DNA of 64,000 nucleotides. It comes from Limosilactobacillus antri DSM 16041. Lineage in GTDB: Bacteria; Bacillota; Bacilli; Lactobacillales; Lactobacillaceae. Below the pieces are notes generated by a model. That model had not been told where the DNA came from and searched no databases. It was given only the letters and a program-made list of their open reading frames with translations. The stretch spans positions 119,257 to 183,256 of the forward strand of contig NZ_GG700738.1 of NCBI RefSeq assembly GCF_000160835.1, read 5' to 3'. How positions within the stretch are numbered: the stretch's first letter is position 1; each line of letters opens with the position of its first letter. Shown here piece by piece: positions 19,274 through 37,915 of this stretch. A program made the translations under genes and the position numbers.

Positions 19274-19305
19274 GGGAACCACGGTGTGTGGTTGCCCGTT
19301 TTTTA
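19274..19305 (+). terminator. Terminator after htpX
   Basis: GGGAACCAC (19274-19282) pairs with GTGGTTGCCC (19288-19297), followed by GTTTTTT. The T run merges with the left direct repeat of the island. Confidence 0.8.
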
Positions 19306-19318
19306 ATTAAGATAGTTT
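19301..19318 (+). repeat. Left direct repeat flanking the island
   Basis: TTTTAATTAAGATAGTTT is repeated exactly at 37898-37915. After a divergent 8-10 bp, both copies continue ATGTCTTT. The two copies frame the AT-richer prd/sel segment and mark its probable insertion boundaries. Confidence 0.75.
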
Positions 19319-19360
19319 AGAAAATTATGTCTTTGAATTAGGATATTTACTTTATTACTT

Positions 19361-19397
19361 AGGAACCGTTTTCAACAACAAGTAATTGTGATATTAT
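19361..19397 (+). promoter_or_regulatory. prdC promoter with overlapping cre-like operator
   Basis: The -35 TTTTCA (19369-19374) and -10 TATTAT (19392-19397) are 17 bp apart. On the minus strand 19361-19375 reads TTGAAAACGGTTCCT, which fits the cre consensus WTGNAANCGNWNNCW (recalled from B. subtilis work) at every position. It overlaps the -35. TTGTGA at 19386-19391 also forms a Rex-like half site over the -10, but the other half is poor. Confidence 0.6.
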
Positions 19398-19404
19398 TAA
19401 CGTA

Positions 19405-19442
19405 GGTTTATGTGTGGTTTGTGCATTGAATAGGAGATGCAC
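19405..19442 (+). promoter_or_regulatory. prdC leader: segment complementary to prdA leader, and ribosome-site hairpin
   Basis: Bases 19410-19422 (ATGTGTGGTTTGT) are the exact complement of 23989-24001 in the prdA leader hairpin loop. Allowing G-U pairs, the match extends to 19 contiguous pairs (19405-19423). Next, GTGCAT (19421-19426) pairs with ATGCAC (19437-19442), which places the TAGGAG ribosome site in the loop. The two structures share bases 19421-19423, so they could compete. Confidence 0.5.
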
Positions 19443-19444
19443 TT

Positions 19445-20779
19445 ATGAGTAAGTTAGTGTTACCGCTGAAAGAGAGCGTTGGCGTTCCAGTTACACCAAT
19501 TGTTAATAAAGGCGACCATGTCAAACGTGGCCAACTGATTGGGAAGCCAGACGGGCTGGGTGCAAATTTGCACGCAAGTGTCTATGGTACAATTACTGAA
19601 ATTAATGATGAGGCAATTGTAATTGAAGCCGATGATGAACAGCCTGCAGATTTTGTGAAAATTCCAGACACTGATTCTAATTTAGAGGCAATTCGTGAAG
19701 CTGGTGTTATTGGTGCTGGTGGTGCAGGATTTCCAGCCGCTGCCAAATATTCGCGTCCAATTCCGGGTGGGCATTTATTTATTAATGCTGCAGAATGTGA
19801 ACCAATTCTGGGGCATAACGTTTCACGAATCACGACAGATGCTGAACAAATTATTCGGGGCGCTGAATACATCAAAGAAATCGTTCAAGCAAAAGATATT
19901 CATATTGCAATCAAGCGCTATCATACTAATGTTGTGGCCTTGCTTGAGGAATTGACACGAACTCATGATGATATTTCATTAGAGTTAATGTGGAACCGCT
20001 ACCCAGAAGGTGAAGAGCGGGCTGTTTTGCGTGATTCAGGTTTATATAAGAAGCCTGATGGCGAGAACGCGGTCTTAAAAACAACAGAATTACCATATGC
20101 CGCTAATGCGATTGTCACTAATGTAGAAACTGTTTACCGTGCAGCACGGGCAATTGAAAATCGTGAGCCAGTCATGAGTAAAGACATTACGGTTGCTGGC
20201 CGGTTGAATGGTGATAACAAAATGATATTGGTGCATAAGGATGTTCCAGTTGGTACTCTTGTTGGCGATATCTTAAGTGAATTCCCTGATATGGCGGATT
20301 ACGGAGAATTAATTATGGGTGGACCATTTACTGGTCATAGCACAACTCTAGATAGTCCGATTACTAAAGTTGATGGTGGTATTATTGCCACTATTCCGTT
20401 CCCTAATTTACACGGTGAAAAGGTGGGGTTGTTGGCCTGTGCCTGCAGCGCTACACCAGCACGGATGAAAGAGTTAGCGGAAAAAATGAATGCTGACGTA
20501 ACCGGTGTAGAATGGTGTAAAAATGCTGTAGTTAACCCGAAAACCGGTACTGCTAAGTGTAAGAACCCAGGAATTTGTCCTGGACAGGCACAAACCATCT
20601 TAAAACTACGTAAGGAAGGCGCCAAGACCTTGCTAGTAGGTAACTGTACTGACTGTACTAATACCGTTATGGGGGTAGCGCCAAAACTAAATATGCCCGT
20701 ATACCACACTACGGATTTTGCTCGGCGGGCAGTTGATATGCGGATTATGCGGAACATTTTGCCAGAAAATAACGAATAG
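19445..20779 (+). CDS. prdC: PrdC, RnfC-like electron transfer protein of D-proline reductase
   Basis: PrdC passes electrons, probably from NADH, to the D-proline reductase. The 444 residues resemble RnfC: a barrel-sandwich start (PVTPIVNKGDHVKRGQLIG) and the nucleotide-binding IGAGGAGFPAAAKY near residue 90. The Cys-rich C-terminus has GVEWCKNAVV, KCKNPGICPGQ and GNCTDCTNTVM. In some clostridial PrdC proteins I recall a selenocysteine in this region; here all positions are Cys, so no UGA decoding is needed. It has its own promoter and terminator, as the first gene of the island. Confidence 0.88.
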   Translation: MSKLVLPLKESVGVPVTPIVNKGDHVKRGQLIGKPDGLGANLHASVYGTITEINDEAIVIEADDEQPADFVKIPDTDSNLEAIREAGVIGAGGAGFPAAAKYSRPIPGGHLFINAAECEPILGHNVSRITTDAEQIIRGAEYIKEIVQAKDIHIAIKRYHTNVVALLEELTRTHDDISLELMWNRYPEGEERAVLRDSGLYKKPDGENAVLKTTELPYAANAIVTNVETVYRAARAIENREPVMSKDITVAGRLNGDNKMILVHKDVPVGTLVGDILSEFPDMADYGELIMGGPFTGHSTTLDSPITKVDGGIIATIPFPNLHGEKVGLLACACSATPARMKELAEKMNADVTGVEWCKNAVVNPKTGTAKCKNPGICPGQAQTILKLRKEGAKTLLVGNCTDCTNTVMGVAPKLNMPVYHTTDFARRAVDMRIMRNILPENNE

Positions 20780-20805
20780 GATTATTTTTAGTTGCTATTC
20801 TAAAA

Positions 20806-21093: not shown

Positions 21094-22575
21094 ATGAGTA
21101 ATGATTCGCCGAGTGGAAGGCGAAACCAGGATACTGCATTTTTTGGTCATCCACACGGGTTATCAACGTTGTTCTTTACTGAAATGTGGGAACGATTTAG
21201 TTACTATAGCATGCATGCTATCTTGCTCTTCTATCTGATTGATAGTTTTAGCAAGGGTGGATTAGGAATGAACACTTCAATAGCAACATCAATTGTTGCT
21301 ATTTATGGTGCATTGATTTATATGTCAACTGTAATTGGTGGGTTCGTTAGCGATCGACTACTTGGACCACGGAAAACCGTTTTTTGGGGCGGTGTTCTGA
21401 TTGCTCTTGGGAATTTCATCTTAGTATTACCGCTTAAATTTGTTGGCTTATATGTGTCAATTGTAATTATCGTTTTGGGTACTGGCTTTTTGAAACCCAA
21501 TGTTTCTGATATGGTAGGTGGTCTATATTCTAAAAAAGATGACCGCCGTGATGCAGGGTTTAACATTTACTATATGGGAATAAATATTGGGGCACTGCTT
21601 GCGCCATTTATTGTTGGCTGGGTTGGACAAACGTATAGTTACCATGCCGGATTTGCACTCTCGACTATTGGAATGATTTTTGGACTAATTCAGTATTATA
21701 TTGGTAGTAAAAAATACTTGGGAAATGACGGATTATACCCTAATGATCCGATTAAACCAGAAGAAAAATCTAAGGTTATTAAACAGGTGAGTTGGGTAAC
21801 AGCAATTATAATTGTTGGCTTGTTGGTGATGTACTTTACTCATACTTTAAATGTTAATAATATTATCTTCATTATCACAATACTGGGTATTTTGTTACCA
21901 GCAATTTACTTTTTTAACATTTTTCGAAGTCCTAAGATCACCCCAAAGGATCGTAAAAATGTAATTGTCTACATTGTTGTTTTTGTTGCCAGTGTTTTCT
22001 TTTGGTCAATTTATGAACAAACGATGACGATCTTTCCATTGGTTGCGGAACAAATGACTAATTTAAAACTCTTTGGCCTTCATGTACAAGCTAGCCAGTT
22101 TACAGGATTTAATGCCTTGTTTGTCTTAATATATTCGCCAATTGTAGCGGCAATGTGGACCAAAATGGGAAAGCATCAACCATCTTCAACCTCTAAATTT
22201 ACAATCGGTTTGTTAGCTTCGGCATTTTCATTCTTGGTATTGCTAATTCCAATTGCGATTAATGGGGTCGGAGTTAAATTCTCCGGTTGGTGGTTAATCT
22301 TGAGTATTGCCATTGTGGAAATTGGAGAAGTATTCCTTTCTCCATCAGGATTATCACTGACAACAAAGCTAGCACCTAAAGCTTTTAATGCCCAAATGAT
22401 GAGTATTTGGTTTTTGGGTGATGCCGCTGCTCAATCATTTAATGCACAATTAGTAAAACTGTATAGTGTTCCCAATGCAACCATGTACTTTGGAGTTATG
22501 GGCGTTATTGCAATTATTATCGCAGTCATCCTATTTTCCATGCGTGGTATGCTGGCAAAACTTATCCAACTGTAG
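21094..22575 (+). CDS. dtpT: POT/PTR-family di-/tripeptide transporter
   Basis: A proton-coupled peptide importer of the major facilitator fold, with 493 residues and about 12-14 hydrophobic helices. The ExxERF motif is in TEMWERFSYYSM, and the PTR2 signature region reads FNIYYMGINIGALLAPFIVG. Lactobacilli carry DtpT-type transporters elsewhere, but this copy lies in the island beside a prolyl iminopeptidase. It probably supplies proline-containing peptides to the proline reductase. The selC promoter overlaps its stop codon. Confidence 0.9.
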   Translation: MSNDSPSGRRNQDTAFFGHPHGLSTLFFTEMWERFSYYSMHAILLFYLIDSFSKGGLGMNTSIATSIVAIYGALIYMSTVIGGFVSDRLLGPRKTVFWGGVLIALGNFILVLPLKFVGLYVSIVIIVLGTGFLKPNVSDMVGGLYSKKDDRRDAGFNIYYMGINIGALLAPFIVGWVGQTYSYHAGFALSTIGMIFGLIQYYIGSKKYLGNDGLYPNDPIKPEEKSKVIKQVSWVTAIIIVGLLVMYFTHTLNVNNIIFIITILGILLPAIYFFNIFRSPKITPKDRKNVIVYIVVFVASVFFWSIYEQTMTIFPLVAEQMTNLKLFGLHVQASQFTGFNALFVLIYSPIVAAMWTKMGKHQPSSTSKFTIGLLASAFSFLVLLIPIAINGVGVKFSGWWLILSIAIVEIGEVFLSPSGLSLTTKLAPKAFNAQMMSIWFLGDAAAQSFNAQLVKLYSVPNATMYFGVMGVIAIIIAVILFSMRGMLAKLIQL

Positions 22576-22576
22576 G

Positions 22577-22605
22577 TTGACGATTCTTACTGCTTTAGTT
22601 ACAAT
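22577..22605 (+). promoter_or_regulatory. selC promoter
   Basis: TTGACG (22577-22582) and TACAAT (22600-22605) are 17 bp apart. The predicted start, about 7 nt downstream, coincides with the 5' end of the tRNA at 22613. Confidence 0.7.
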
Positions 22606-22612
22606 GTTCAGT

Positions 22613-22709
22613 GGGAGTAGATGGGTTCTGGTGTGCCCCCTGGTCCTCAAAACCAGTGCGAGGAGTTAGAAGCTTCTTAGGTAGGTTCGATTCCTACGTA
22701 TTCCCGCCA
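22613..22709 (+). tRNA. selC: tRNA-Sec (anticodon UCA)
   Basis: The 97-nt sequence begins GGGAGTAG and ends TATTCCCGCCA, with CCA encoded. The acceptor pairs GGGAGTA with TATTCCC. The anticodon arm is CTGGT, loop CCTCAAA with anticodon TCA, then ACCAG. A long variable arm is formed by GAGGAG and CTTCTT, and the T arm is GTAGG, TTCGATT, CCTAC. UCA reads UGA. The eighth acceptor pair would be G-G. It serves the UGA in prdB, with SelA making Sec-tRNA and SelB delivering it. Confidence 0.95.
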
Positions 22710-22737: not shown

Positions 22738-22767
22738 GAGAGTCGATCACTATCGGCTCTCTTTTTT
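22738..22767 (+). terminator. Terminator after selC
   Basis: GAGAGTCGAT (22738-22747) pairs with ATCGGCTCTC (22752-22761) and is followed by six T. It lies directly in front of pepI, whose mRNA must either read through it or start at an unseen promoter. Confidence 0.88.
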
Positions 22768-22789: not shown

Positions 22790-23680
22790 ATGACAGAAAT
22801 TCAAGAAGGTTATATGCCGTTTGGAGAGTATAAAACTTACTATCGGATTGTTGGCAAAAAGAGTAATAAGGCGCCCCTATTACTTTTGCACGGTGGACCT
22901 GGATCAACTCATAACTACTTTGAGCTACTTGACGATCTAGCTGAAAAGGATCAGCGGCAACTGGTAATGTATGATCAAATTGGTTGCGGCAAGTCTTCGA
23001 TGCCTGATGATAAGGCTGACGAGGTTTACAATGCTAAAACTTGGGTAGCAGAATTAAAAGCTCTTCGCGAGTATTTAGAACTTGAGCAGATTCACGTGTT
23101 AGGACAATCATGGGGCGGCATGCTTGAAATTATATATCTTTGCGATGAACAACCAAAGGGAATAAAGTCGGGAATCCTTGCTAGTACCTTGCCGGCATCA
23201 TGGATGTGGGACAAGGAACTTCACAGAATGATTAAATTTATGGATCCAAGTGATCAAAAAGCAATTGCAGACGCGGAGACTAAAGGGGATTTTACTAGTC
23301 CGGAGTATCAACGGGCTAACGCTAAATTTATGGAAATGCATTGTAATTCTGCTCCTACTTCCACTGACCCAGAACCACTTCGTCGGAAGAAAAATGCGGG
23401 AACAGTCGCATACATTACTGGATGGGGACCAAATGAATATAATCCTGAGGGCAATTTAAAAGACTATGATTACATGGATAAATTACAAGATATTCACGTG
23501 CCGGTTTTGGTTACAAGTGGCACCGACGACTTATGTACTCCATATACAGCAAAGTCGATGTATGATCGGATCCCAAATGCTAAATGGCATTTGTTCGAAT
23601 ATTGTCGTCATATGGCATTTGTAGAACGAAAGGATGACTATGAAAAAGCTCTGATGGAATGGCTTGACGAGCACGACTAA
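22790..23680 (+). CDS. pepI: Prolyl iminopeptidase (alpha/beta hydrolase)
   Basis: A serine peptidase that removes N-terminal proline from peptides. The 296-residue product has the oxyanion motif HGGPGS, the nucleophile elbow GQSWGG, and a late Asp (SGTDDLCTP) and His (CRHMAF), as in lactobacillus PepI. The ATG at 22790 follows GGGAG at a good distance. A longer frame from 22712 would run through the terminator and is rejected. With the peptide importer upstream and proline reductase downstream, its likely job is to free L-proline from imported peptides. Confidence 0.88.
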   Translation: MTEIQEGYMPFGEYKTYYRIVGKKSNKAPLLLLHGGPGSTHNYFELLDDLAEKDQRQLVMYDQIGCGKSSMPDDKADEVYNAKTWVAELKALREYLELEQIHVLGQSWGGMLEIIYLCDEQPKGIKSGILASTLPASWMWDKELHRMIKFMDPSDQKAIADAETKGDFTSPEYQRANAKFMEMHCNSAPTSTDPEPLRRKKNAGTVAYITGWGPNEYNPEGNLKDYDYMDKLQDIHVPVLVTSGTDDLCTPYTAKSMYDRIPNAKWHLFEYCRHMAFVERKDDYEKALMEWLDEHD

Positions 23681-23871: not shown

Positions 23872-23900
23872 TTGAAAACGGTTCAAAAATAAAATATAAT
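23872..23900 (+). promoter_or_regulatory. prdA promoter with overlapping cre-like operator
   Basis: TTGAAA (23872-23877) and TATAAT (23895-23900) are 17 bp apart, a near-consensus promoter. The palindrome TTGAA-AACGG-TTCAA (23872-23886) covers the -35. It shares 13 nt with the prdC operator in the opposite orientation and fits the cre consensus with one mismatch. Confidence 0.7.
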
Positions 23901-23962: not shown

Positions 23963-23980
23963 TTGTAAGTAGATTCACAA
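23963..23980 (+). promoter_or_regulatory. Rex-like operator in prdA leader
   Basis: TTGTAAGTAGATTCACAA fits the Rex consensus TTGTGAANNNNTTCACAA except at two positions. Rex senses NADH/NAD+, and in C. difficile it controls proline reductase genes. The site is about 60 bp downstream of the predicted start, where it could block elongation. Confidence 0.5.
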
Positions 23981-24059: not shown

Positions 24060-25946
24060 ATGTCTATTTCAGTTGAAACTGCTAAGGAGCACCTCAACGA
24101 CCCGGCTGTCTTATGCTGTCGGCGCGAAAAGGGTAAGCTACTAGAGGCTTCCGACTTGGAAGATCCTACGCTTTTCCCTGATTATGAGGATTCAGGTCTG
24201 CTAGAATTACCTGACAATGTCTTGAAAATTGGTCAGGTATTAGGAGCAACTCTAGACAAGACTATGGATGCTTTGCTGCCATTAACGCCGGATGTTGTTG
24301 ACAATATTCAGGATCCTTCAGCACAAGATGATGAGGAAGACACGGATAATGCACCTGCTACAGAAGATGCTACTCCTGCTTCTCCAGATGTAACTGCCAC
24401 GGTTGCCAACGGTAATGTTTCTAATGGTGTTGTTCACCTTTCTGTGAAGGAAGGTAAGGGCATCGAATTGGATGTACCGTTAGCAATGGTAAACCAAGGT
24501 GCTGTTAAGAATGCACCTTCTGCTGGTGAGACGAAGGAAACTACTTCTCAACAAGAACCAGAAGTTGATGAAGAAGTTGTTCGGACTCTGACCCGGAAGC
24601 ATTTCAAGATTGACAAGGTTGAGTTTGGGGATGAAACCAAGATTGACGGTACTACGTTGGTTATTGGTAACACAGACGAACTTTGCAAGGAAGCACTTGA
24701 AAATCACGAAATCGTTAAGGATATTTCGGTTAGTGTTATTACTCCTGACGATTACCACAAATACACCAATAGTATCATGGACGTTCAACCAATTGCCACG
24801 AAGGAAGAGGGCGAACTTGGTGAAGGTGTAACCCGTGTCCTTGACGGTGTTGTCACTGTTCTGACTGGTACTGATGAGAACGGTGTTCAAGTTGGTGAAT
24901 TTGGTTCCTCCGAAGGTTACGTTGATGAAAACGTTATGTGGGGCCGTCCAGGTGCTATTGACAAGGGTGAAATTATGCTTGTCATTAACGCAACTGTTCA
25001 AGCCGGTACTAACCGTGAACGTCGTGGACCACGTGGTGCTCACGAAGCTGCCGACACAATTGTCGAACATATTCGTGAAGCTCTTAAGAAGGCTGACGAC
25101 AGTTTGGTTGTTGATACCGAAAAGATTGAGCAAAAGCGTCGTTTCGGTAACAAACGGGTCCTTTTAGTTAAGGAAATTATGGGCCAAGGTGCTATGCACG
25201 ATAACCTAATTCTGCCAAAGGAACCGGTTGGTACTTTAGGTGCTCAGGCGAATGTTGACCTTGGTAATTTACCAATCATGCTTTCACCACTGGAAGTTCT
25301 TGATGGTGGTATCCATGCTCTGACTTGTATTGGACCCGCATCGAAGGAAACTTCACGTCACTACTGGCGTGAACCGCTAGTTGAAGAAGCCCTTAAGGAT
25401 GAAGACATTGATGTTGTCGGTGTCTGCCTAATTGGCTCACCACAAGCAAACACTCAAAAGAGCTATGTTTCCAAGCGCCTTGGAATGTGGGCTGAAGCCA
25501 TGGGACTTGATGGTGCGATTGTGACTACCGAAGGGTTCGGTAATAACCACATTGACTATGGTGAAAACATCGAAGCAATTGGCTCACGCGGTGTTCCAGT
25601 TGTAGGTATTACCTACTCGGCTATTCAGGGTGAACTGGTAACTGGTAATAAGTACATGGACGCTATTGTTGATAATAACAAGTCCAAGTGGGGAATCGAA
25701 AACGAAGTTCTTGAAAACAATACGCTTTGTCAAGAAGATGCTATTCGGGCCCTGGCAATGCTTGAAACCAAGATGGCTGGTGGAAAGATTAAGAAGCCTG
25801 AACGTAAGTGGAATCCTAACGTTAAGTTAAACAACATTGACTTAATCGAAAAGGCTACTGGTAAGAAGATTGAACTGGCCAAAAATGAGCAGAGTTTACC
25901 AATGAGTAAGAAGCGTAAGGAACATTATGAGAAGGATGTTGACTAA
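24060..25946 (+). CDS. prdA: D-proline reductase proprotein PrdA
   Basis: PrdA is the precursor of the pyruvoyl-containing subunits of D-proline reductase, which cleaves the ring of D-proline to 5-aminovalerate. In Clostridium sticklandii the 68-kDa proprotein is cut at Cys421, which becomes the pyruvoyl group. Here, in 628 residues, GGIHALTCIGPASKET places the matching cysteine at 423. The N-terminal half holds an acidic low-complexity stretch (about residues 88-112), and the LPKEPVGTLGAQ region precedes the cleavage site. It has a strong promoter, a structured leader and an AAGGAGG ribosome site. The next gene overlaps its stop by one base. Confidence 0.95.
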   Translation: MSISVETAKEHLNDPAVLCCRREKGKLLEASDLEDPTLFPDYEDSGLLELPDNVLKIGQVLGATLDKTMDALLPLTPDVVDNIQDPSAQDDEEDTDNAPATEDATPASPDVTATVANGNVSNGVVHLSVKEGKGIELDVPLAMVNQGAVKNAPSAGETKETTSQQEPEVDEEVVRTLTRKHFKIDKVEFGDETKIDGTTLVIGNTDELCKEALENHEIVKDISVSVITPDDYHKYTNSIMDVQPIATKEEGELGEGVTRVLDGVVTVLTGTDENGVQVGEFGSSEGYVDENVMWGRPGAIDKGEIMLVINATVQAGTNRERRGPRGAHEAADTIVEHIREALKKADDSLVVDTEKIEQKRRFGNKRVLLVKEIMGQGAMHDNLILPKEPVGTLGAQANVDLGNLPIMLSPLEVLDGGIHALTCIGPASKETSRHYWREPLVEEALKDEDIDVVGVCLIGSPQANTQKSYVSKRLGMWAEAMGLDGAIVTTEGFGNNHIDYGENIEAIGSRGVPVVGITYSAIQGELVTGNKYMDAIVDNNKSKWGIENEVLENNTLCQEDAIRALAMLETKMAGGKIKKPERKWNPNVKLNNIDLIEKATGKKIELAKNEQSLPMSKKRKEHYEKDVD

Positions 25947-26275
25947 TGACTGACAAACGAATGGATTATTCCTCTGAAATCGACAAGTTAAAATATTCAT
26001 CGACTGAACGTGTTTTCGAAGGTGTAATTACCGAAGTCAATGATGTTAGTGTTAAAATTGATTTCAAAGGGCGGATGGGGAAGATGGATATTCCCCGACG
26101 TCTCCTAATTACGGAGTATGATCCAAAAGTTGGTGAAGAAGTCGGTTGGCTAATGTCATATCCTGAAGTTCTTGACACTGAAGCCAACCAGAAATATCTG
26201 GGTGCGCTTCATGAATACAAAAAGCGAATGGCCAAAATTGCCAAAGAAAAAGAGAAAGGAAGGACAAAGGAATGA
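25946..26275 (+). CDS. CBO2463/CBO2479-type small protein of the proline reductase cluster
   Basis: This 109-residue protein lies between prdA and prdB, overlapping each by one to four bases, so translation is coupled. It has a small beta-rich core (RVFEGVITEVNDVSVKIDFKGRMGKMDIPRRLLI) resembling an OB/S1-like barrel, then a basic helical tail ending KEKEKGRTKE. The same position in clostridial prd operons is filled by the CBO2463/CBO2479-domain protein, whose function I do not know. A role in maturation of PrdA/PrdB is conceivable but not shown. Confidence 0.75.
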   Translation: MTDKRMDYSSEIDKLKYSSTERVFEGVITEVNDVSVKIDFKGRMGKMDIPRRLLITEYDPKVGEEVGWLMSYPEVLDTEANQKYLGALHEYKKRMAKIAKEKEKGRTKE

Positions 26276-26997
26276 GCTTATTAAATATTGATGGCTTACA
26301 GTCTGAAGTCTTCGTTCCAATTACTCCAAAGCCGGTCTTTGCTAAAGTAACAAAGCCGCTTAAGGACATGAAGATTGCGATTGTTACTGCCGCCGGTGTT
26401 CATATGAAAAAAGATAAGCCGTTTAACCTCGCCGGTGATACTAGTTACCGGGTAGTTCCAAGTTCTGCAACGGATGATGAGCTAATGGTTTCACACGGTG
26501 GATATGATAACACCGATGTTAACAAGGACATTAACTGTATGTTCCCAATTGACCGTTTGCGTGAATTGGCGGATGAAGGATTTATCGGTTCTCTTGCACC
26601 TAACTTCTACACTTGTATGGGTGGTGGTGGAGACGTTAAAGTCTTCACTGAAGAAACTGGTCCAGCAATTGCTAAAAAGATTAAGGAAGAAAACGTCGAT
26701 GGCGTTATTCTGACTGCTGGTTGAGGTACCTGCCACAGAACTGCCGTGATCGTGCAGCGAGCTATTGAATCTCTAGGGATTCCTACTATTATCATTGCAG
26801 CGTTACCTCCAGTAGTACGTCAGCAGGGTACGCCACGTGCCGTTGCTCCTCGTGTACCGATGGGTGCCAATGCCGGCGAACCAAATAACGTGGAGATGCA
26901 AACTGGTATCGTAAAAGACACGTTAAAACAACTGGTGGAAATTGACCAACCTGGCAAGATCGTACCACTTCCGTACGAATATGTTGCTGATATTTAA
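26272..26997 (+). CDS. prdB: D-proline reductase selenoprotein PrdB (UGA = Sec151)
   Basis: The frame from ATG 26272 meets TGA at 26722-26724 and then continues to TAA at 26995. Read as selenocysteine, it gives 241 residues with ILTAG-U-GTCHRTAV at position 151, the UxxC redox centre of the PrdB/GrdB family. The selenol is known to attack the substrate held on the PrdA pyruvoyl group. The downstream half (RAIESLGIPTIIIAALPPV) is well conserved, and all Sec machinery lies in the same island. A conventional gene caller would break this into two fragments. Translation is coupled to the upstream gene through an ATGA overlap. Confidence 0.96.
26722..26757 (+). promoter_or_regulatory. UGA-Sec codon and candidate bacterial SECIS
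   Basis: The UGA (26722-26724) is followed by a small hairpin: CTGC (26741-26744) pairs with GCAG (26754-26757) around a 9-nt loop CGTGATCGT. The loop begins 20 nt after the UGA and has G as its second base. This fits the bSECIS rules I recall: loop 16-37 nt from the UGA, with an early loop G. The stem is only 4 bp, and UGCCAC with GUGCA offers an alternative pairing. Confidence 0.6.
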
Positions 26998-30330: not shown

Positions 30331-30353
30331 ATTAAATAAAAGGAGTGAACGCT

Positions 30354-31394
30354 ATGCCGTCAACCGAGAAGGATTTTTTAACCGTTTGCGGTGGTTGTAA
30401 TGCTAAAATTGGCGCTGGTAATTTAGCAGCAATTTTAAAATCACTGCCACGACCGAAAAAGAGTGATCGATTACTGGTTGGATATAATTCAGACGATGAT
30501 GCAGCTGTTTATAAGATCGATGATCAAACCGCCATTATTCAAACGTTAGATTTCTTTCCGTCAATGGTGACAGATCCGTACCTATTTGGGAAAATAGCGG
30601 CGACTAATGCTTTGTCAGATGTATTCGCGATGGGCGGTGATGTGGTTACTTGTCTAAATATTGTGTGTTTTCCAGAAGACAGTAACATGAAAATTTTGGA
30701 ACAGATATTAAAAGGAGGCGCAGAAAAGGTTAAGGAAGCGGGAGGAATCCTTGCTGGAGGGCATTCGATTCACGATCATCGTGCAAAGTATGGTCTCTCC
30801 GTAATGGGGAAGGTGGCTCCCGATAAGATTCTGCGCAACGATAATGTTCAGGATGGGGATGTTTTAATTCTTACTAAGCCCTTGGGAGTTGGAATTATTG
30901 TTCCGGCGTATAATACCGGCCAGGTTGATGAAGAAGCCTTCAAAGCAGCTACTGATTCAATGACCACGTTGAACAAGTATGCAGCGGATATTATGCGTGA
31001 TTATCCGGTTGATTCATGTACGGATATTACTGGATTTGGTTTGGCGGGACATTTAACGGAGATGTTGCACGGTGAGTATCAGGCCCGGTTAACTGCAGAA
31101 AACATTCCAATGATTCCAGAGGCATATGAATGTGCTGGTGAATTTTTGACTACCGCTGGTGGTCAACGTAACCGAGACTTTTTAGGTAAGCGGATTGATT
31201 TTACTTTTGATGATTACGCATTACAAGAAGTGCTGTTTGATCCGCAAACTTCAGGTGGCTTGTTAATTGCTGTTCAGCCGCAGTATGCAGATGTAATGAT
31301 GAATAGGCTGAAAAAGCTTACTACACGGTCAGCTGTTATTGGTAAGATTACTAAAAAAGATCCAAATGACCAAACGGAAATTATTGTGGATTAA
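30354..31394 (+). CDS. selD: Selenide, water dikinase
   Basis: It makes selenophosphate from selenide and ATP, the selenium donor for Sec-tRNA. The 346-residue protein has TVCGGCNAKIGAG near the N-terminus, where the Cys replaces the Sec found in some homologues. The ATP-binding DDAAVYKI and GGHSI segments are conserved. The ATG at 30354 is preferred, 8 nt after AGGAG; the upstream GTG at 30345 overlaps that ribosome site. It heads a tight run of selenium genes. Confidence 0.95.
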   Translation: MPSTEKDFLTVCGGCNAKIGAGNLAAILKSLPRPKKSDRLLVGYNSDDDAAVYKIDDQTAIIQTLDFFPSMVTDPYLFGKIAATNALSDVFAMGGDVVTCLNIVCFPEDSNMKILEQILKGGAEKVKEAGGILAGGHSIHDHRAKYGLSVMGKVAPDKILRNDNVQDGDVLILTKPLGVGIIVPAYNTGQVDEEAFKAATDSMTTLNKYAADIMRDYPVDSCTDITGFGLAGHLTEMLHGEYQARLTAENIPMIPEAYECAGEFLTTAGGQRNRDFLGKRIDFTFDDYALQEVLFDPQTSGGLLIAVQPQYADVMMNRLKKLTTRSAVIGKITKKDPNDQTEIIVD

Positions 31395-31414: not shown

Positions 31415-32068
31415 ATGCAAACTGTTGATGCAATGGGGAAAGCATGTCCAACACCAGTAATTATGACACGGAAGGCGCTTCGCGATAATGATGTTGTGGT
31501 GACTAGAGTAAGCGAAGAAATTGCCACAGAAAATATTTCAAAAATGGCGGCCCAACTTGGATATAAATGCTCGGTTGAACAAAAAGGAGATCATGAATGG
31601 GCAGTTACGGTAGAAAAGCAGGATGTAAAATCTGCCAATGCCTGTCGAATGGCCATTAATGAATACTCAGTTACCGGTGATGATGAGCAACATATTGAGC
31701 CAGCCGCTATCAATAATATACGGCTTTCTGACGGTTACATTGTTGTTCTTAATTCAGATGAAGTTGGCCGTGGTGATTCTACTCTTGGTAAGCAATTAGC
31801 GAAGAGCTTTGTTTCCTCACTGACGGAACAGGATGTTTTACCGGAATACATTTTGATGTACAACAGTGGTGTTAAACTGGCTATTAACGATGCTGATACA
31901 CTGGAAGACCTGCAGGACCTGGAAAAAATGGGGGTTAAGATCATGGAGTGTGGAATTTGTGTTAACTTCTTTGACATTAAGGACCAACTAGGCGTTGGCT
32001 CCATCACTAATATGTTTCAAATTACCGAATTGATGCGGAGTGCTCAGCGGGTTGTTAAGCCTTCATAA
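31415..32068 (+). CDS. yedF: Selenium metabolism protein YedF
   Basis: This 217-residue protein has an N-terminal TusA/SirA-like domain with the conserved GKACPTPVI cysteine, and a C-terminal DsrE-like domain (residues of about 100-205) with MECGICVNFF. Proteins of this layout track the selenium trait across bacteria and may carry selenium between enzymes. It lies 20 bp after selD and 15 bp before the DUF3343 gene, consistent with a selenium relay to SelD. Confidence 0.87.
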   Translation: MQTVDAMGKACPTPVIMTRKALRDNDVVVTRVSEEIATENISKMAAQLGYKCSVEQKGDHEWAVTVEKQDVKSANACRMAINEYSVTGDDEQHIEPAAINNIRLSDGYIVVLNSDEVGRGDSTLGKQLAKSFVSSLTEQDVLPEYILMYNSGVKLAINDADTLEDLQDLEKMGVKIMECGICVNFFDIKDQLGVGSITNMFQITELMRSAQRVVKPS

Positions 32069-32083: not shown

Positions 32084-32347
32084 ATGCATGCAGAATATGG
32101 CTTAGTGGTGTTTGATTCAACGCATGAGGCGATTAAAACGGAAACGCTTGCTAAGAATAATCATTTTCATGCCCGTTTAATTGGTACTCCAGGTAAAATT
32201 GTAGCTGGTTGCGGTTTGAGTTTGCGGTTTGAAATGGATGATACGAACCAGTTGAAAAAATTGTTGGATAATAATAATGTGAGTTATAAGGGATTCTATC
32301 ATGCCCTTCGTGATGGAATTAAGAGTAGTTATACAGTAATCAAGTAA
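32084..32347 (+). CDS. DUF3343 protein, putative selenium-associated
   Basis: This small protein of 87 residues belongs to the DUF3343 family. It has EYGLVVFDSTHEAIKTE at the start and VAGCGLSLRFE near residue 45, with a single conserved Cys. The family is often next to yedF and sel genes, and its biochemical role is not established. Here it sits between yedF and selB, which supports a selenium-handling role by context only. Confidence 0.8.
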   Translation: MHAEYGLVVFDSTHEAIKTETLAKNNHFHARLIGTPGKIVAGCGLSLRFEMDDTNQLKKLLDNNNVSYKGFYHALRDGIKSSYTVIK

Positions 32348-32369: not shown

Positions 32370-34247
32370 ATGGACTATATTGTTGCTGCAACCGCAGGAC
32401 ATGTTGATCATGGTAAAACAACCCTTATCAAACGACTTACAGGAATCGATACTGATACTGCTCCGGAAGAGAAAAAGCGGGGCCTAACCATTAACTTAGG
32501 CTTCGCTTATTTTGATTTACCGAGCAAAAAGCGAATTGCCTTTGTTGACGTTCCGGGCCATGAGAAATTCCTCAAAAACATGATTTCTGGATTGACAGGG
32601 ATTGATATGGCGTTACTAGTGGTTGATGCTGGCGAGGGTGTGATGCCTCAGACTGAAGAACATGCTGCAATTTTGTCGCTGCTAGGAATTAAGAATTTTG
32701 TAATTGCGGTAACCAAGGCAGATACGGTTGATCCGGAAATGTGTCAGTTAACTATAGAAGATATTCGAGAACACTTTAAGAACGGGCCACTAGAGAAAGC
32801 ACCACTGGTGGTGACCGATGCGGTTAGTGGTCGGGGAATTAAAGAGCTAATCGCCGTGATGGATGAAACTGCTTCAAAAATTAAGAAACACCGTGCTGGA
32901 AGTAACCCCCGTTTGAACATTGATCGGGTTTTCACCATCAAGGGACATGGAACGGTGGTTACCGGAACGTTAATTGATGGTTTTATCAAAGCTAATGACA
33001 ACCTGGAAATTTACCCGTCTCAGATTCCCGTCCGGGTGAAAAACATTCAAGTTAATGATCAGGATCAACTAGTCGCTCAGCCAGACCACCGGGTTGCACT
33101 TAATCTTGATGTCAAATCATCGGATATTCATAAGGGTGAAATAGTTACAGTCCCTGGCAATGTTACCTCAAGTAAGTTACTGGATGTGCAATTAAATATG
33201 CTGCCGAACGTCCCCAGTCTAAAGCTCAATGAACGTTTTCGGCTGTACGTGGGGTCTGTTGAAGTTTTTGGGCGTCTTTACCCTATGGTTGAAGACGAGG
33301 TTAAAGCTGGCACAAACTGTCTAGCACAGTTGCGTTTAGAAACCCCAGTTGCTGTAAAAAATGGAGATCGTTTTATTGTGCGAACTTACTCCCCAATGGT
33401 TACTGTAGCTGGGGGAACAATTTTATCGGCTAATGCTAAGCATCATTCGCGTAATAACCAATCAATTATTAACACGCTAAGGATTCGCGCAGGTGGTGAC
33501 GAAAAGGCAATTATTGTGGATTACCTTCAAAATTCAGGCAAAACGGTGGCGACGACTAGAGAGTTAGCCAGTCTTATTGATGTTGATACCAAAGAACTTC
33601 AGAAGGATCTTCAGCAACTTCTTGATGCCCATCAACTAGTAGCAATTGATGATTATTATTTTACAAGTAATAATATTGACAATGTAATGCAACAGGTTGT
33701 TAGGTCCTTGGCGGACGCCCAAGAAAAGCACCCGTTAAGGAGGGGAGTTCCACGGCCAGAATTAATATCGAGGCTTAATAAGGCACTTCAGGTGCCAGTT
33801 GGGGCCAGCCTGATTAAAATGATGAAAGATCAGGAGCAGGTAAAGCTTGTTAATGATCTAGTAGCAACTAAGGAGTTTAAGGTTGTCCTGACGCCACAAC
33901 AAGAAAAGTTGAAGGCTGAGTTACTTAAAAAGCTTAATACTGGTGACCTGATTCCGGTGAGTGTCGAACAACTAGGTGAGCAATCTCAAGTCTTGCCACT
34001 TTTAGAATCCTTTGATGGAGAAGATTTTGTTTACCTAGGGGATGGCTATTGTCTGAGCTGGAAAACTTACCAGGAAATTATTCAAAAAGTACGTAATTAC
34101 TTAGCCAGTCATTCAGCAGGAATTGGTTTGAGTGAGTATCGTGATTTAACCGAGAGTTCCCGGAAGTACGCGATAATGGTATTGGAGCGCTTAGATAAGG
34201 ATGGAGTTACTAAACGAATGAATCGGGTGCATATTTTAAATGGATGA
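32370..34247 (+). CDS. selB: Selenocysteine-specific elongation factor SelB
   Basis: SelB binds GTP, Sec-tRNA and the SECIS hairpin to insert Sec at UGA. The 625-residue protein has G1 GHVDHGKT (residues 10-17), G3 DVPGHEKF and G4 TKAD, then EF-Tu-like domains 2 and 3. The C-terminal part of about 250 residues has the winged-helix repeats that contact the SECIS (for example GVPRPELISRLNKAL and GLSEYRDLTESSRKYAIMVLERLD). The length matches bacterial SelB. The next gene overlaps its end by 8 bp. Confidence 0.95.
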   Translation: MDYIVAATAGHVDHGKTTLIKRLTGIDTDTAPEEKKRGLTINLGFAYFDLPSKKRIAFVDVPGHEKFLKNMISGLTGIDMALLVVDAGEGVMPQTEEHAAILSLLGIKNFVIAVTKADTVDPEMCQLTIEDIREHFKNGPLEKAPLVVTDAVSGRGIKELIAVMDETASKIKKHRAGSNPRLNIDRVFTIKGHGTVVTGTLIDGFIKANDNLEIYPSQIPVRVKNIQVNDQDQLVAQPDHRVALNLDVKSSDIHKGEIVTVPGNVTSSKLLDVQLNMLPNVPSLKLNERFRLYVGSVEVFGRLYPMVEDEVKAGTNCLAQLRLETPVAVKNGDRFIVRTYSPMVTVAGGTILSANAKHHSRNNQSIINTLRIRAGGDEKAIIVDYLQNSGKTVATTRELASLIDVDTKELQKDLQQLLDAHQLVAIDDYYFTSNNIDNVMQQVVRSLADAQEKHPLRRGVPRPELISRLNKALQVPVGASLIKMMKDQEQVKLVNDLVATKEFKVVLTPQQEKLKAELLKKLNTGDLIPVSVEQLGEQSQVLPLLESFDGEDFVYLGDGYCLSWKTYQEIIQKVRNYLASHSAGIGLSEYRDLTESSRKYAIMVLERLDKDGVTKRMNRVHILNG

Positions 34248-35400
34248 TGAAAAGAAAATGATTTATCTTGATAATGGAGCGACTACGGTCCATAAGCCAG
34301 CGATTGTCGCAAAGGCAGTGTACCAGGTATTGAGTAGCGGCCAGTACGGCAATCCTTCTCGGGGAACGTACCAAATTGCCGTTAATGCGAGCGAGCTGGT
34401 TTATCAAACTCGTCAAAAGATTGCCAAGTTCTTTAACGTCCCAGATAGTTCCCTGGTAGTCTTTACCAAAAATGTTACAGAGGCATTGAACACGGTTATT
34501 AAGGGTTATCTAAAGCCGGGTGACGATGTAATTGCAACAATGTATGATCATAATTCGGTTTTACGGCCAATTTATCAAATGGTGAAGTATAATGTCAGTC
34601 ACACATTCTTGCCTCTAGATGCTCAGACTAACTTAGTAGATCTGACTACGTTGGAAAAATCAATTAAGCCCAACACCAAAATGGTTGTTTGTACCCACGC
34701 TTCAAACGTTATCGGCAACTTAGTTGATTTAAAGAAGGTAGCAGAGATCTGCCATCGTCACCACATCCTTTTTGTGGTAGATGCGGCACAAACGGCTGGT
34801 GTTTTACCAATTGATATGCAAAAAATAGGTATTGACGTTCTTTGCTTTACTGGTCATAAATCTTTGTATGGTCCAGAAGGTACCGGTGGAATTTGCTTTA
34901 GCCACCAAATTGACATCGAGCCGCTGATTGTTGGCGGTAGTGGGATTGATTCGTATAATCACTCAATGCCGAAGCGCTTTCCCGAATGTTTAGAGGGAGG
35001 AACAGCCAATGTTCCCGGAATTGCTGGTTTGGGTGCTGGAATAGATTATTTGATGAGTCATGACTATGTGAAACTTGGCCAGGAAACTAGAAAATTGGCG
35101 GATTATTTTGTTCAAGAAATTAAAGATCATTCTAATATCCACATCTATACTAACTTAGTGGCGCCCCATGTCGCGACAATTGGGCTAAATATTGCTGGAA
35201 TGAATTCAGCTGATGTTAGTGCTTATTTAAGTGAATATGGAATTGCTACACGGTCTGGTGCCCATTGTGCTCCGCTGATTCATCAAACATTAGGAACCGT
35301 GGAGCAGGGAATTGTCCGTTTCTCGTTCTGTTCTTTTAATACCGAAGATGAGGCATTAGCGGCCAGCGAAGTTATCAAAGAAATTGCTGAGCAAGTGTAG
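34240..35400 (+). CDS. Class V aminotransferase-fold cysteine desulfurase / selenocysteine lyase
   Basis: This 386-residue PLP enzyme of the NifS/SufS/CsdB family releases sulfur or selenium from cysteine or selenocysteine. The PLP lysine is in FTGHKSLYGPEGTGG, and the mobile-loop catalytic Cys is in RSGAHCAPLIH, close to the group II motif RSGHHCA. It lies between selB (8-bp overlap) and selA, so its likely role is providing selenide to YedF or SelD rather than Fe-S assembly. A Suf-like role cannot be excluded from sequence. Confidence 0.87.
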   Translation: MDDEKKMIYLDNGATTVHKPAIVAKAVYQVLSSGQYGNPSRGTYQIAVNASELVYQTRQKIAKFFNVPDSSLVVFTKNVTEALNTVIKGYLKPGDDVIATMYDHNSVLRPIYQMVKYNVSHTFLPLDAQTNLVDLTTLEKSIKPNTKMVVCTHASNVIGNLVDLKKVAEICHRHHILFVVDAAQTAGVLPIDMQKIGIDVLCFTGHKSLYGPEGTGGICFSHQIDIEPLIVGGSGIDSYNHSMPKRFPECLEGGTANVPGIAGLGAGIDYLMSHDYVKLGQETRKLADYFVQEIKDHSNIHIYTNLVAPHVATIGLNIAGMNSADVSAYLSEYGIATRSGAHCAPLIHQTLGTVEQGIVRFSFCSFNTEDEALAASEVIKEIAEQV

Positions 35401-35413
35401 TAGGAGAAAAATA

Positions 35414-36811
35414 GTGATAAATAAAAATACACGCGAAGAACTTTTCAGGGAGATCCCATCCGTGAATGATTTAATTCATCATTCACGGATAGAACCTTTA
35501 ATTACCGAGATGGGTAGCCAAGAGGTAAAAAAACTAATTAATTCGGTACTGACTGAAGTCCGCCAATCCATTATCAGCGGTAAAGTTACCAGTATTGCCC
35601 TAGATCAAATCGTTCAGTCAATTATTGACGAATGTACGTTGAAACGTCGTCCATCTCTTGAACCTGTCATTAACGGGACGGGGGTAATACTACATACCAA
35701 TCTAGGCCGTTCGTTACTCAGTCCTGCGATTAAAGATTACATTAACCGGATCATGTTCTCGTATTCTAATTTAGAATACAATTTGCAGGAGAAGAGACGA
35801 GGATTGCGTTATCATCATGTGGAGAAAGTTTTGCGTGAGCTTACGGGAGCTGAAGACGTTTTAGTTGTTAATAATAACGCAGCGGCCGTAATGTTAACGC
35901 TAGATACCCTAGTACCGAGTAAAGAGGTAATTGTTTCACGGGGGGAGTTGGTAGAAATTGGTGGTTCTTTCCGCATTCCTGAAATTATTACCAAGGGCGG
36001 CGGAACCCTCCATGAAGTTGGAACGACTAATAAGACCCATCTAAGCGATTACCAGGCAGCCTTAAATGAAGATACGGGTGCTATTTTAAAGGTTCACACC
36101 AGTAATTACCGTATTATTGGCTTTACCGAACGACCATCGACAGCCGAATTACAGCAATTAGCGGAGGTTGCGGATATCCCGATGATTAATGACCTAGGAA
36201 GTGGCCTGTTTATTGACCTAAGTAAGTATGGCTTACCAAAGGAGCCACTGATTCAAGAAGCAGTGGCCAACAGCGATATTGTCACCTTTTCTGGTGATAA
36301 GCTCCTCGGTGGTCCGCAGGCAGGGATCATTGCGGGAAAACATTCATTAATTGAAAAGATTAAGAGTAACCAGCTATTGCGTGCATTGCGGGTTGATAAG
36401 TTAACATTAGCCGCATTAGAAGCGACGCTGGATCTGTATCGTAACCCTAAAAGGGCAGTAAGAGAGATTCCAACTTTAAGAATGATTACTTTAGAGATGG
36501 ATGAACTAACACGGTGCGCAAATGATTTAGCAAACAAGCTCAACACCGTCAATGGGCTTTCAGTTAAAGTGATTCCTGGTAGCTCTCAAGTGGGTGGCGG
36601 TTCCTTTCCCGGCTACGAGATTCCAACGGCGTTAGTAAGCGTTCAGCTCCCTGAAGATTATTCAGCAACCCGATTTGAGCAGCTATTACGGACGGGTCCA
36701 ATACCGATTATTGCACGTTTAGAACATGATCAAATTCTTTTGGATGTACGGACGCTGCAAGCGGGTGATACCGAAATAATTTATAATCGAATTGCGGAAT
36801 TGGTAAAGTAA
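35414..36811 (+). CDS. selA: L-seryl-tRNA(Sec) selenium transferase
   Basis: SelA converts seryl-tRNA(Sec) to selenocysteyl-tRNA using selenophosphate and PLP. The GTG at 35414, 6 nt after TAGGAGA, is chosen. It gives 465 residues (E. coli SelA has 463); a longer TTG start at 35384 would overlap the previous gene. INGTGVILHTNLGRSLLS near residue 80, the PLP lysine in TFSGDKLLGGPQAGII, and GSSQVGGGSFPG are conserved. It completes selABCD within the island. Confidence 0.95.
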   Translation: MINKNTREELFREIPSVNDLIHHSRIEPLITEMGSQEVKKLINSVLTEVRQSIISGKVTSIALDQIVQSIIDECTLKRRPSLEPVINGTGVILHTNLGRSLLSPAIKDYINRIMFSYSNLEYNLQEKRRGLRYHHVEKVLRELTGAEDVLVVNNNAAAVMLTLDTLVPSKEVIVSRGELVEIGGSFRIPEIITKGGGTLHEVGTTNKTHLSDYQAALNEDTGAILKVHTSNYRIIGFTERPSTAELQQLAEVADIPMINDLGSGLFIDLSKYGLPKEPLIQEAVANSDIVTFSGDKLLGGPQAGIIAGKHSLIEKIKSNQLLRALRVDKLTLAALEATLDLYRNPKRAVREIPTLRMITLEMDELTRCANDLANKLNTVNGLSVKVIPGSSQVGGGSFPGYEIPTALVSVQLPEDYSATRFEQLLRTGPIPIIARLEHDQILLDVRTLQAGDTEIIYNRIAELVK

Positions 36812-36871
36812 CTAAGAGAGATATTTAATTAATTTTTTATCTTTCTTGCCCATCAACCAGGAGTGGTCGAA

Positions 36872-37765
36872 ATGAATACAACACTAATAACTCAATTAAT
36901 TCTTGGCGTTTTACTACTTTTTCAAGTTTATAATTATGGTCGAGATATTTTTAAGAATCGTAAGTGCTTGAATGACGGTAACCGAAACCCAGCTGTGACC
37001 GGGCTGATTGGTTTTACAACTAATTTCTTTGATACCCTTGGAATCGGGTCTTACGCACCCACGACGATGTTACTTAAACTAACTAAGTCGTTAAAAAATG
37101 ATCGGTTATTGCCTGGAACGTTGAACGTTGGATGTGCCATCCCGGTTATGACAGAAGCGTTTATGTATATTAAAACAGTTAAAGTTGACGGAATGACATT
37201 GTTGTCAATGGTTTTTGCGGCTATGCTAGGTTCCTTTATTGGTGCCAAAGTGGTAGCACGTTTTGATGAAAAGAAAGTTCAAGTTGTCATGGGGAGTGCC
37301 TTAGCAATTACAGCAATTTTAATGATTTTGTCTGCAACTGGTGTAACTACTAGATTAGGGGCACATAATGTGGCCACAGGTTTTTACGGCTGGAAACTTT
37401 ACGTGGCCTGTGGTGTTAACTTTGCTTTAGGGGCTTTAATGACCGCTGGGATTGGATTATATGCGCCTTGTTTGGCCCTCGTTTACTTACTGGGGTTAAA
37501 CCCAGTAGTTGCCTTTCCAATCATGATGTCATCAAGTGCGTCGGTGATGCCAATTGCCGCGCGTGAGTTTATCAAGAAAGGAGATTATGCCCGGGTACCG
37601 GCAATCTCTATTACAATTTGTGGTTGTATGGGTGTGTTTGTTGCAATTACATTCGTTAAGCGCCTTAACTTAACGCTCTTGATGTGGCTTGTAATTGGTG
37701 TAATGATCTACACGTCAATTCTGATGCTTGTAGAGGGAATTCGCAAGTTTAAGACAGTTTGTTAA
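36872..37765 (+). CDS. TSUP (TauE/SafE-like) membrane protein, paralogue 2
   Basis: This is a close paralogue of the gene at 29369, with the same 297-residue length, helix layout and motifs (TNFFDTLGIGSYAPTT, TAGIGLYAPCLALVYLLG). The ATG at 36872 follows CCAGGAG at a proper distance; the GTG at 36863 overlaps the ribosome site. It is the last gene of the island. The duplication suggests two related transport steps, or dosage, linked to selenium or proline use. Confidence 0.78.
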   Translation: MNTTLITQLILGVLLLFQVYNYGRDIFKNRKCLNDGNRNPAVTGLIGFTTNFFDTLGIGSYAPTTMLLKLTKSLKNDRLLPGTLNVGCAIPVMTEAFMYIKTVKVDGMTLLSMVFAAMLGSFIGAKVVARFDEKKVQVVMGSALAITAILMILSATGVTTRLGAHNVATGFYGWKLYVACGVNFALGALMTAGIGLYAPCLALVYLLGLNPVVAFPIMMSSSASVMPIAAREFIKKGDYARVPAISITICGCMGVFVAITFVKRLNLTLLMWLVIGVMIYTSILMLVEGIRKFKTVC

Positions 37766-37790
37766 ATGATTATGGTAAAAGTTAAAGGGA

Positions 37791-37830
37791 GCCTGTGATA
37801 AAATGAAATTTTGTCGTAGGCCCCTGTTTT
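37791..37830 (+). terminator. Terminator after the second TSUP gene
   Basis: A 14-bp stem (37791-37804 with 37808-37821, three G-U pairs, loop GAA) is followed by CCCTGTTTTGG. It resembles the prs terminator in layout. Confidence 0.65.
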
Positions 37831-37858
37831 GGTTACAAATATTTTAAGAGTATCATGT

Positions 37859-37902
37859 AGCCCCCAGGAGCCTGTAGTCCTTGGGGGTCACACCTCCTTT
37901 TA
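37859..37902 (-). repeat. Hairpin element B, related to element A at 1836
   Basis: Read on the minus strand it runs AAAAGGAGGTGTGACCCCC, AAGGA, spacer, TCCTGGGGG. The CCCCC/GGGGG and AGGA/TCCT parts pair. It shares the start, the pairing core and the TGATA-containing tail with element A. It directly abuts the right direct repeat of the island. Confidence 0.4.
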
Positions 37903-37915
37903 ATTAAGATAGTTT
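37898..37915 (+). repeat. Right direct repeat flanking the island
   Basis: TTTTAATTAAGATAGTTT is identical to 19301-19318, followed in both by ATGTCTTT after 8-10 divergent bases. This copy lies in the murF promoter region, suggesting that the htpX-murF gap was the target site. Confidence 0.75.

Follow-up and report, generated by a model that had tools for sequence, protein, structure and literature searches.

A complete gene set for a predicted selenocysteine-dependent D-proline reductase on a chromosomal island of Limosilactobacillus antri

The stretch analysed here (the window) comprises 64,000 nucleotides of contig NZ_GG700738.1 from Limosilactobacillus antri DSM 16041. Between htpX (ending at 19256) and murF (open reading frame, ORF, from 37926), it contains an 18.6-kb island (19303–37915) with 17 protein genes and a gene for the selenocysteine tRNA (tRNA-Sec), all on the + strand (Table 1). 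These include the prd genes of a D-proline reductase, a trait usually credited to clostridia, together with genes for the use of selenocysteine (Sec), of which lactobacilli, to our knowledge, are usually not counted as users. An initial annotation had delimited the island correctly, its ends coinciding with an exact 16-bp direct repeat, and had named prdC, prdA, prdB, prdD, prdE, prdF, selA, selB, selC, selD, yedF, a DUF3343 gene and a selenocysteine lyase-like gene, all of which are present. Beyond this list, we find a POT-family symporter, a proline iminopeptidase (PepI), a CBO2463-domain protein and two transporters of the TSUP family.

Table 1. Features of the island, in order of position; scores are followed by the model cut-off where one applies.
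Feature	Position	Strand	Evidence
Left repeat copy TTAATTAAGATAGTTT	19303..19318	+	exact match, 3' of htpX; related empty site has one similar copy
cre-like operator 5' of prdC (predicted)	19361..19375	.	shared 13-mer; in G001 at same distance
Weak Rex-like site 5' of prdC (predicted)	19386..19402	+	1 mismatch to typed pattern; p 0.27
prdC, electron transfer protein (RnfC-like)	19445..20779	+	TIGR04481, 628 bits (490)
POT-family oligopeptide:H+ symporter	21094..22575	+	TIGR00924, 383 bits; PF00854
Promoter-like site before tRNA-Sec (predicted)	22577..22605	+	TTGACG-17-TACAAT, 10/12
selC, tRNA-Sec (UCA anticodon)	22613..22709	+	ARAGORN; RF01852, 64.8 bits (47)
Terminator-like hairpin 3' of tRNA-Sec	22738..22761	+	10-pair stem and T run
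pepI, proline iminopeptidase	22790..23680	+	NF045945, 492 bits (400), match from residue 29 of longer ORF
Promoter-like site 5' of prdA	23872..23900	+	TTGAAA-17-TATAAT, 11/12, best of 49 hits in 19200–38000
Rex-like palindrome TTGTAAGTAGATTCACAA 5' of prdA (predicted)	23963..23980	.	2 mismatches; 0/100 shuffles as good
prdA, D-proline reductase proprotein	24060..25946	+	TIGR04480, 995 bits (700); cleavage motif HALTC
CBO2463-domain protein, between prdA and prdB	25946..26275	+	NF041553, 92 bits (50)
prdB	26272..26997	+	TIGR04483, 407 bits (300), read through UGA
SECIS hairpin CUGCCGUGAUCGUGCAG (predicted)	26741..26757	+	strongest synonymous-site constraint in prdB
prdD	27076..27822	+	TIGR04482, 357 bits (320)
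prdE	27837..28310	+	matches PrdA profile 415–564
prdF, proline racemase-like	28328..29344	+	PF05544, 407 bits; both catalytic Cys motifs present
TSUP (TauE/SafE) transporter 1	29369..30262	+	PF01925
selD	30345..31394	+	TIGR00476, 382 bits (125)
yedF	31415..32068	+	TIGR03527, 197 bits (110)
DUF3343, putative Se/S carrier	32084..32347	+	PF11823, 77 bits (25)
selB	32370..34247	+	TIGR00475, 342 bits (242)
Cysteine desulfurase / selenocysteine lyase-like enzyme	34240..35400	+	TIGR01977, 376.5 bits (377)
selA	35384..36811	+	TIGR00474, 593 bits (268)
TSUP (TauE/SafE) transporter 2	36863..37765	+	PF01925; 71% nt identity to TSUP transporter 1 over 300 nt
Right repeat copy	37900..37915	+	5' of murF; homologous to empty site in L144/L145

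All 17 island proteins were compared with NCBIfam, and seven of them also with Pfam. PrdA, PrdB, PrdC and PrdD surpass the cut-offs of the D-proline reductase equivalog models and, judged by these matches, the Prd gene set is complete. SelA, SelB, SelD and the tRNA-Sec, which make up the selenocysteine-decoding set, likewise lie above their respective cut-offs, bearing out the earlier claim of a complete gene set for a Sec-dependent D-proline reductase. PrdA carries the motif HALTC, present in 85 of 86 PrdA rows, the cysteine of which we take to be the cleavage site that yields the pyruvoyl group. PrdE, which has no model of its own, matches only GrdG and the C-terminal part of PrdA. The best solved relative of PrdF is the proline racemase AsProR (7pb3, E = 4e-116), presumably from Acetoanaerobium sticklandii, and PrdF also scores with hydroxyproline epimerase models. 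The start of pepI was set from ATG positions (the mechanical ORF begins at 22712), and the start codon of selA is uncertain, its first ATG not occurring before residue 43.

Two of the additional genes accompany prd elsewhere as well. Every Sec-type prd locus counted has the CBO2463 gene between prdA and prdB (41/41 in Bacilli, 28/28 in Clostridia); its product, which matched no Pfam family, has 18–19 invariant columns and a predicted structure of a small barrel and a helix, and is possibly an obligatory part of D-proline reductase. Where the flanks are long enough to judge, prd loci nearly always include a TSUP gene (31 of 31 in Bacilli, 21 of 22 in Clostridia), and the L. antri island has two; these proteins are candidates for the transport of a product or an anion.

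The in-frame UGA of prdB, noted in the initial annotation, lies at 26722–26724, and TGA is found in relatives as well. It corresponds to residue 151 in the motif UGTC (UxxC), and a single prdB frame exists only when it is read through. Among the 93 PrdB rows with this motif, some of which represent one genome fetched twice, the catalytic codon is TGA in 90, including one GrdB (L190, in genome G085), and TGC in three divergent paralogs; one short row without the motif (L054) was dropped. We predict from this pattern that codon 151 is read as Sec (Sec151). A hairpin shortly 3' of the UGA spans the wobble sites 6–12 codons downstream. In a codon alignment of 82 Sec-type prdB genes, the mean wobble entropy of codons 157–163 is 0.23 bits, the lowest of 235 seven-codon segments, compared with 1.35 bits across the degenerate codons of the gene, and of the 87 fourfold sites, codons 157, 158, 159 and 161 have the four lowest values. 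None of the three Cys-type prdB genes keeps both hairpin arms, L039 retaining the 5' arm. The stem is nearly invariant and shows no covariation. Through its synonymous constraint, this conserved stem-loop is predicted to be a bacterial selenocysteine insertion sequence (SECIS).

By its composition, the island is foreign DNA within a Limosilactobacillus-like backbone, as had been proposed. Its GC content is 41.1%, as opposed to 51.0% and 53.5% in the flanks, and the GC content at third codon positions (GC3) ranges from 0.29 to 0.43 in the 14 of 17 island genes measured, without overlap with the 0.58–0.73 of 11 hand-picked flank genes. The island also interrupts a conserved neighbourhood: a search located htpX in 48 of the 50 species genomes of Limosilactobacillus, and murF lies directly 3' of it in 29 of the 30 loci examined, with 61–268 nt between the aligned parts. 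In the 30th locus, that of G001, a Limosilactobacillus metagenome-assembled genome (MAG) of unknown completeness, the same prd-sel cluster sits between htpX and murF, diverged in sequence. The nearest relatives in the set, G031 and G032 (htpX 83% identical), have an empty site with one repeat-like copy, TTTTAGCAAGATAGTTT. In the window, the left repeat copy follows the htpX terminator and the right copy runs on into sequence homologous to the empty site; a repeat pair of this kind at the island ends had no match in 100 shuffles, and the repeat was not seen at the G001 island. Judged from the ribosome site, murF more likely starts at 37998 than at 37926. All 17 protein genes are open, save for the single UGA in prdB. 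Family matches found no recombinase or conjugation gene among the 17 proteins, unlike what a self-mobile element would carry, and the island therefore probably arrived with outside help. Judged from its flanks, and with no replication or recombination gene inside, it is chromosomal.

Proline reductase and the Sec apparatus occur together across the family. Out of 397 Lactobacillaceae genomes, 13 have PrdA and 13 have SelA above the cut-off, with 12 in common (P = 6e-21, kinship not corrected for). In the PrdA-only genome, G268, a divergent cluster encodes a PrdB with TGC (Cys) and no SelA was matched; G085, the genome with SelA only, carries genes for glycine reductase, GrdA and GrdB both containing UGA. 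Within Limosilactobacillus, SelB exceeds the cut-off in just one of 50 species genomes, yet entries in the protein databases include PrdA of L. antri, L. panis and L. reuteri as well as SelB of L. antri and L. oris, so that the trait seems strain-variable. Furthermore, 23 plasmid records have a PrdA match, five of them from L. salivarius. The initial annotation knew of no standard description of such a system in lactobacilli; these genomes and plasmids, as well as a published gene list (PMC4165912), correct this: prd-sel in lactobacilli is not unprecedented and is database-annotated in several of them, but it has been little noticed in the literature searched.

Glycine reductase may be a second client of the same code. 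GrdA and GrdB with in-frame TGA are found in seven of 14 genomes searched (among them G085, G221 at L193 and G417 at L194), six of which also have prdB. The gene row in G085 (L190:12565–18807) consists of component B, GrdA, GrdB, TrxB, a thioredoxin-like gene and component C; its GrdB passes the glycine reductase cut-off (694 versus 602 bits) and fails that for sarcosine (691 versus 800). Our literature search found no paper with a title on glycine reductase in Lactobacillaceae.

In a tree of 86 PrdA rows, built by a quick method with one model and a midpoint root, the lactobacilli, represented by 16 rows from 14 distinct genomes, fall into a single clade (support 99 in the Shimodaira–Hasegawa-like approximate likelihood ratio test, SH-aLRT). 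This clade is nested in a set of 52 rows, most of them from Bacilli and the set also including Megasphaera and Turicibacter, with no row labelled Clostridia; most tree rows come from the best 80 of 469 loci, so that distant clostridia are under-sampled. The island PrdA belongs to this Lactobacillaceae clade and does not look like a direct or recent clostridial import; on this tree, prd is a long-standing trait of the family and no new acquisition from clostridia. PrdC has a mosaic history. The L. antri island type groups with L. salivarius, Bombilactobacillus and Xylocopilactobacillus, in a wider group of 14 rows (support 100) that adds Peptostreptococcus, two C. difficile rows, Asaccharospora, Megasphaera cerevisiae and a Lachnospiraceae row. 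Companilactobacillus PrdC, by contrast, lies on another branch than that of these four lactobacillus genera, although the PrdA proteins of the two are sister clades; this difference points to replacement of the electron-transfer partner. The linked genes differ between classes as well: in the 31 Bacilli prd loci whose flanks are long enough, the linked genes include selB (24 loci), DUF3343 (21), the lyase-like gene (20) and pepI (10), compared with 7, 0, 0 and 0 among 22 Clostridia loci. These counts are from the same best 80 loci, six without a class label being excluded, and a gene counted as absent lacks a copy within 10–12 kb, or a match to the window's own proteins, and may still be encoded elsewhere in the genome.

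The closest described counterpart is the Ligilactobacillus salivarius megaplasmid pMP1046A (L085), which has the order prdA-CBO-prdB(UGA)-prdD-prdE-prdF-TSUP, then yedF-DUF3343-selB-lyase-like-selA, as well as prdC, selD and tRNA-Sec. Unlike the island, it is annotated with an APC permease and YedE and has no POT or PepI match. The part of its description considered here (PMC4165912) lists prdA, a 'probable pseudogene' of proline reductase in the place of prdB, a proline racemase, selA, selD and a SelB gene; it assigns three genes to the interconversion of L- and D-proline and describes neither a selenoenzyme nor an electron sink. This pseudogene, LSJ_2018 (L085:18214–18939), is a prdB whose reading frame contains a UGA and which has the conserved hairpin; it should be re-annotated, as in RefSeq, where prdB is now annotated on pMP1046A. 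Further clusters in Enterococcus, Vagococcus and Companilactobacillus in many cases share the order through selD-yedF-DUF3343-selB-lyase-like-selA, with pepI adjoining prd in several Enterococcus, but have a PrdC of the other branch and different flanks. In the Clostridioides difficile operon (L034), the order is prdA-CBO-prdB(UGA)-prdD-prdE-(second prdE-like)-prdF-TSUP, with a CcpA site 5' of prdA; no sel gene lies in the 17.7-kb stretch examined, and its PrdA falls into another clade. C. difficile also has PrdR and Rnf. As in the island, the 21-kb plasmids of Terrisporobacter combine prd with selA, selB, selC and selD on one compact element, for which the sections considered report no PrdR (PMC10564238), but they are replicating plasmids of a clostridium and not a chromosomal island.

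The portion considered of one compilation counts 110 organisms with Sec-containing proline reductase and names no lactobacillus (PMC5029168), that of a survey from 2006 gives Enterococcus faecalis as the only SelD-bearing member of the Lactobacillales (PMC1794560), and that of a 2026 review of prokaryotic selenoproteomes makes no mention of lactobacilli (PMC13188914). Likewise, our literature search found no paper on a Limosilactobacillus proline reductase or on prdB selenocysteine in lactobacilli.

The absence of a PrdR-type activator, the one gap seen in the initial annotation, holds: no PrdR-like or sigma-54 activator family was matched among the 17 island proteins. In G001, sigma-54 activator (PF00158) matches reach only 33–41 bits (maximum 41.1), while seven of 14 genomes have at least 140 bits. 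Control by CcpA and Rex through predicted sites, and not by PrdR, appears likely. A cre-like 13-mer, TTGAAAACGGTTC, occurs 5' of prdA and of prdC and nowhere else in the window, even at one mismatch; the copy before prdA (23872–23884) starts with the -35 hexamer of the promoter-like site there, which stands out by rank among hits that, counted at any grade, are as frequent as in shuffles (49 versus 49.6). The Rex-like palindrome starts 97 nt 5' of prdA, G001 has a site at the same distance, and Rex-type N-domains are found in 13 of 14 genomes; at up to two mismatches, the Rex pattern has nine hits in the window, with 6.5 expected. According to PMC3510511, prdA of C. difficile is preceded by a site to which CcpA binds, pepI is co-regulated and CcpA control is positive; our own scan recovers this site at -293 (L034).

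We consider the island to be a self-contained D-proline reductase trait, with the enzyme subunits, a predicted Sec at the prdB UGA, a predicted full set for reading it, and a symporter and iminopeptidase that likely feed it with proline; we put the probability of this reading at roughly 80%. The gene families, the UGA, the tRNA-Sec, the insertion site and the phylogeny are read from the sequence, and from there we infer the following course. The POT symporter would import peptides, from which PepI would free L-proline for conversion to D-proline by PrdF. PrdA would cleave itself at the cysteine of HALTC to give the pyruvoyl enzyme and, together with Sec-bearing PrdB, open the D-proline ring to 5-aminovalerate, with PrdC handing on electrons from NADH; a TSUP protein may carry the product or a counter-ion. 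The lyase-like enzyme, YedF, the DUF3343 protein and SelD would provide selenophosphate, SelA would make Sec-tRNA, and SelB and the hairpin 3' of the UGA would insert Sec. In heterofermentative lactobacilli, an outside electron acceptor lets acetyl-phosphate yield acetate and ATP. With NADH reoxidized on proline, sugar-derived acetyl-phosphate could thus go to acetate and ATP instead of ethanol. A search for RnfD was negative in all 14 carrier or related genomes, a set without the window's own genome, and positive in 4 of 14 control genomes, which makes coupling to Rnf unlikely and a soluble sink likely; taken with the lack of a PrdR-type activator in G001, it argues for a soluble, peptide-fed sink for NADH. 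The island thus likely gives a lactic acid bacterium a proline-driven, soluble NADH sink.

Several observations weigh against parts of this reading. While most gene labels of the initial annotation lie over curated cut-offs and PrdE is placed without a model of its own, two labels miss theirs: PrdF reaches 491 bits where the proline racemase model demands 556, and the lyase-like protein scores 322 bits with SclA (NF040779), the cut-off being 525, hence 'lyase-like' only. The SECIS hairpin folds no more stably than shuffles (z = +0.67 for 50 nt and +1.48 for 60 nt), so the SECIS claim rests on synonymous constraint. As for regulation, single cre-like sites are no better than shuffles (p 0.31–0.36), the cre pattern at up to one mismatch is not enriched in the window (22 versus 29.8), cre and Rex sites are inconsistent across the other loci scanned, and the candidate cre site at prdA overlaps the -35 box, as opposed to the positive CcpA control of C. 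difficile. Phosphoketolase is present in 13 of 14 genomes but was not found in G001, the one Limosilactobacillus, so the acetate and ATP step rests on general knowledge of the genus. Finally, genome G146 has a SelA piece (169 bits, below the cut-off) and PrdA was not found in it; the piece (L195:16142–16645) reaches within 64 nt of the contig end, and its 16.7-kb contig yielded no other island gene, glycine reductase gene or tRNA-Sec.

The foremost alternative is that the island is a silent or decaying import, its genes intact by chance or recent arrival, with no Sec insertion and a reductase inactive in lactobacilli. The patchy occurrence of SelB in the genus and the lack of a recombinase would fit this; however, the open state of all 17 genes apart from the prdB UGA, the wobble constraint on the SECIS throughout 82 prdB genes, the joint presence of prd and sel in 12 genomes, with two exceptions that are consistent with it, and the common PrdA clade of the Lactobacillaceae speak against it, and we regard it as improbable. 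Somewhat less probable still is a different substrate in place of D-proline, either cyclic or an N-alkyl amino acid, such as a derivative of hydroxyproline or of proline betaine. The subthreshold PrdF, with its hydroxyproline epimerase matches, leaves room for this, as does the fact that PrdA and PrdB have no solved structural relative detectable by sequence, so that substrate residues are unreadable from structure; but four Prd proteins exceed D-proline reductase equivalog cut-offs, AsProR is the nearest solved relative of PrdF, and a proline iminopeptidase gene lies within the island. An assembly or binning artefact, that is, clostridial DNA joined onto a lactobacillus contig, would explain the sharp break in GC and GC3 but is hardly credible, given the diverged cluster at the identical htpX/murF site of G001, near-identical proteins labelled L. 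antri at NCBI along with database-named proteins from L. panis, L. reuteri and L. oris, and a PrdA that groups with lactobacilli, apart from clostridial rows; the contamination that the initial annotation had raised as a possible refutation is thus unlikely.

The prd-sel gene set is real and complete, and its biochemical role is likely. We tentatively extend this reading, at somewhat less than even odds: the Sec code in lactobacilli may travel together with the enzyme it serves in one cassette (Prd or Grd, or the two combined, with tRNA-Sec, SelA, SelB and SelD), lineages without a client being without SelA, so that in Limosilactobacillus one UGA in one gene would pay for the whole apparatus. 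The enzyme would then perform half of a Stickland reaction: as a soluble sink fed with proline from peptides, it would raise the ATP yield from sugar with neither amino acid oxidation nor Rnf. With Prd or Grd so closely coupled to SelA, how the 21st amino acid is gained and lost can be tested directly within a single well-sampled family. If the proline sink is real, it would alter the modelling of carbon and redox balance in probiotic and food lactobacilli, selenium would be a possible growth factor for them, and they would be candidate proline consumers in the gut, where C. difficile competes for proline (PMC7918557, in the part considered).

The lactobacillus genome G268 and Asaccharospora each have a divergent PrdA/PrdB pair of Cys type (TGC), and Megasphaera cerevisiae has a PrdB of this kind (L189:7123–13150, L055:2039–7600 and L039:5609). 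No CBO2463, TSUP or sel match was found near the G268 cluster, and these divergent proteins possibly act on another substrate. Elsewhere in the window, a 1167-aa protein with repeated modules (3808–7311) is, from its sequence, probably secreted and perhaps of a surface or lysin type. A second low-GC stretch (35%) lies at 61799–64000, 3' of lysS at the window end, and encodes a 473-aa protein that, by its sequence, resembles an arylsulfotransferase.

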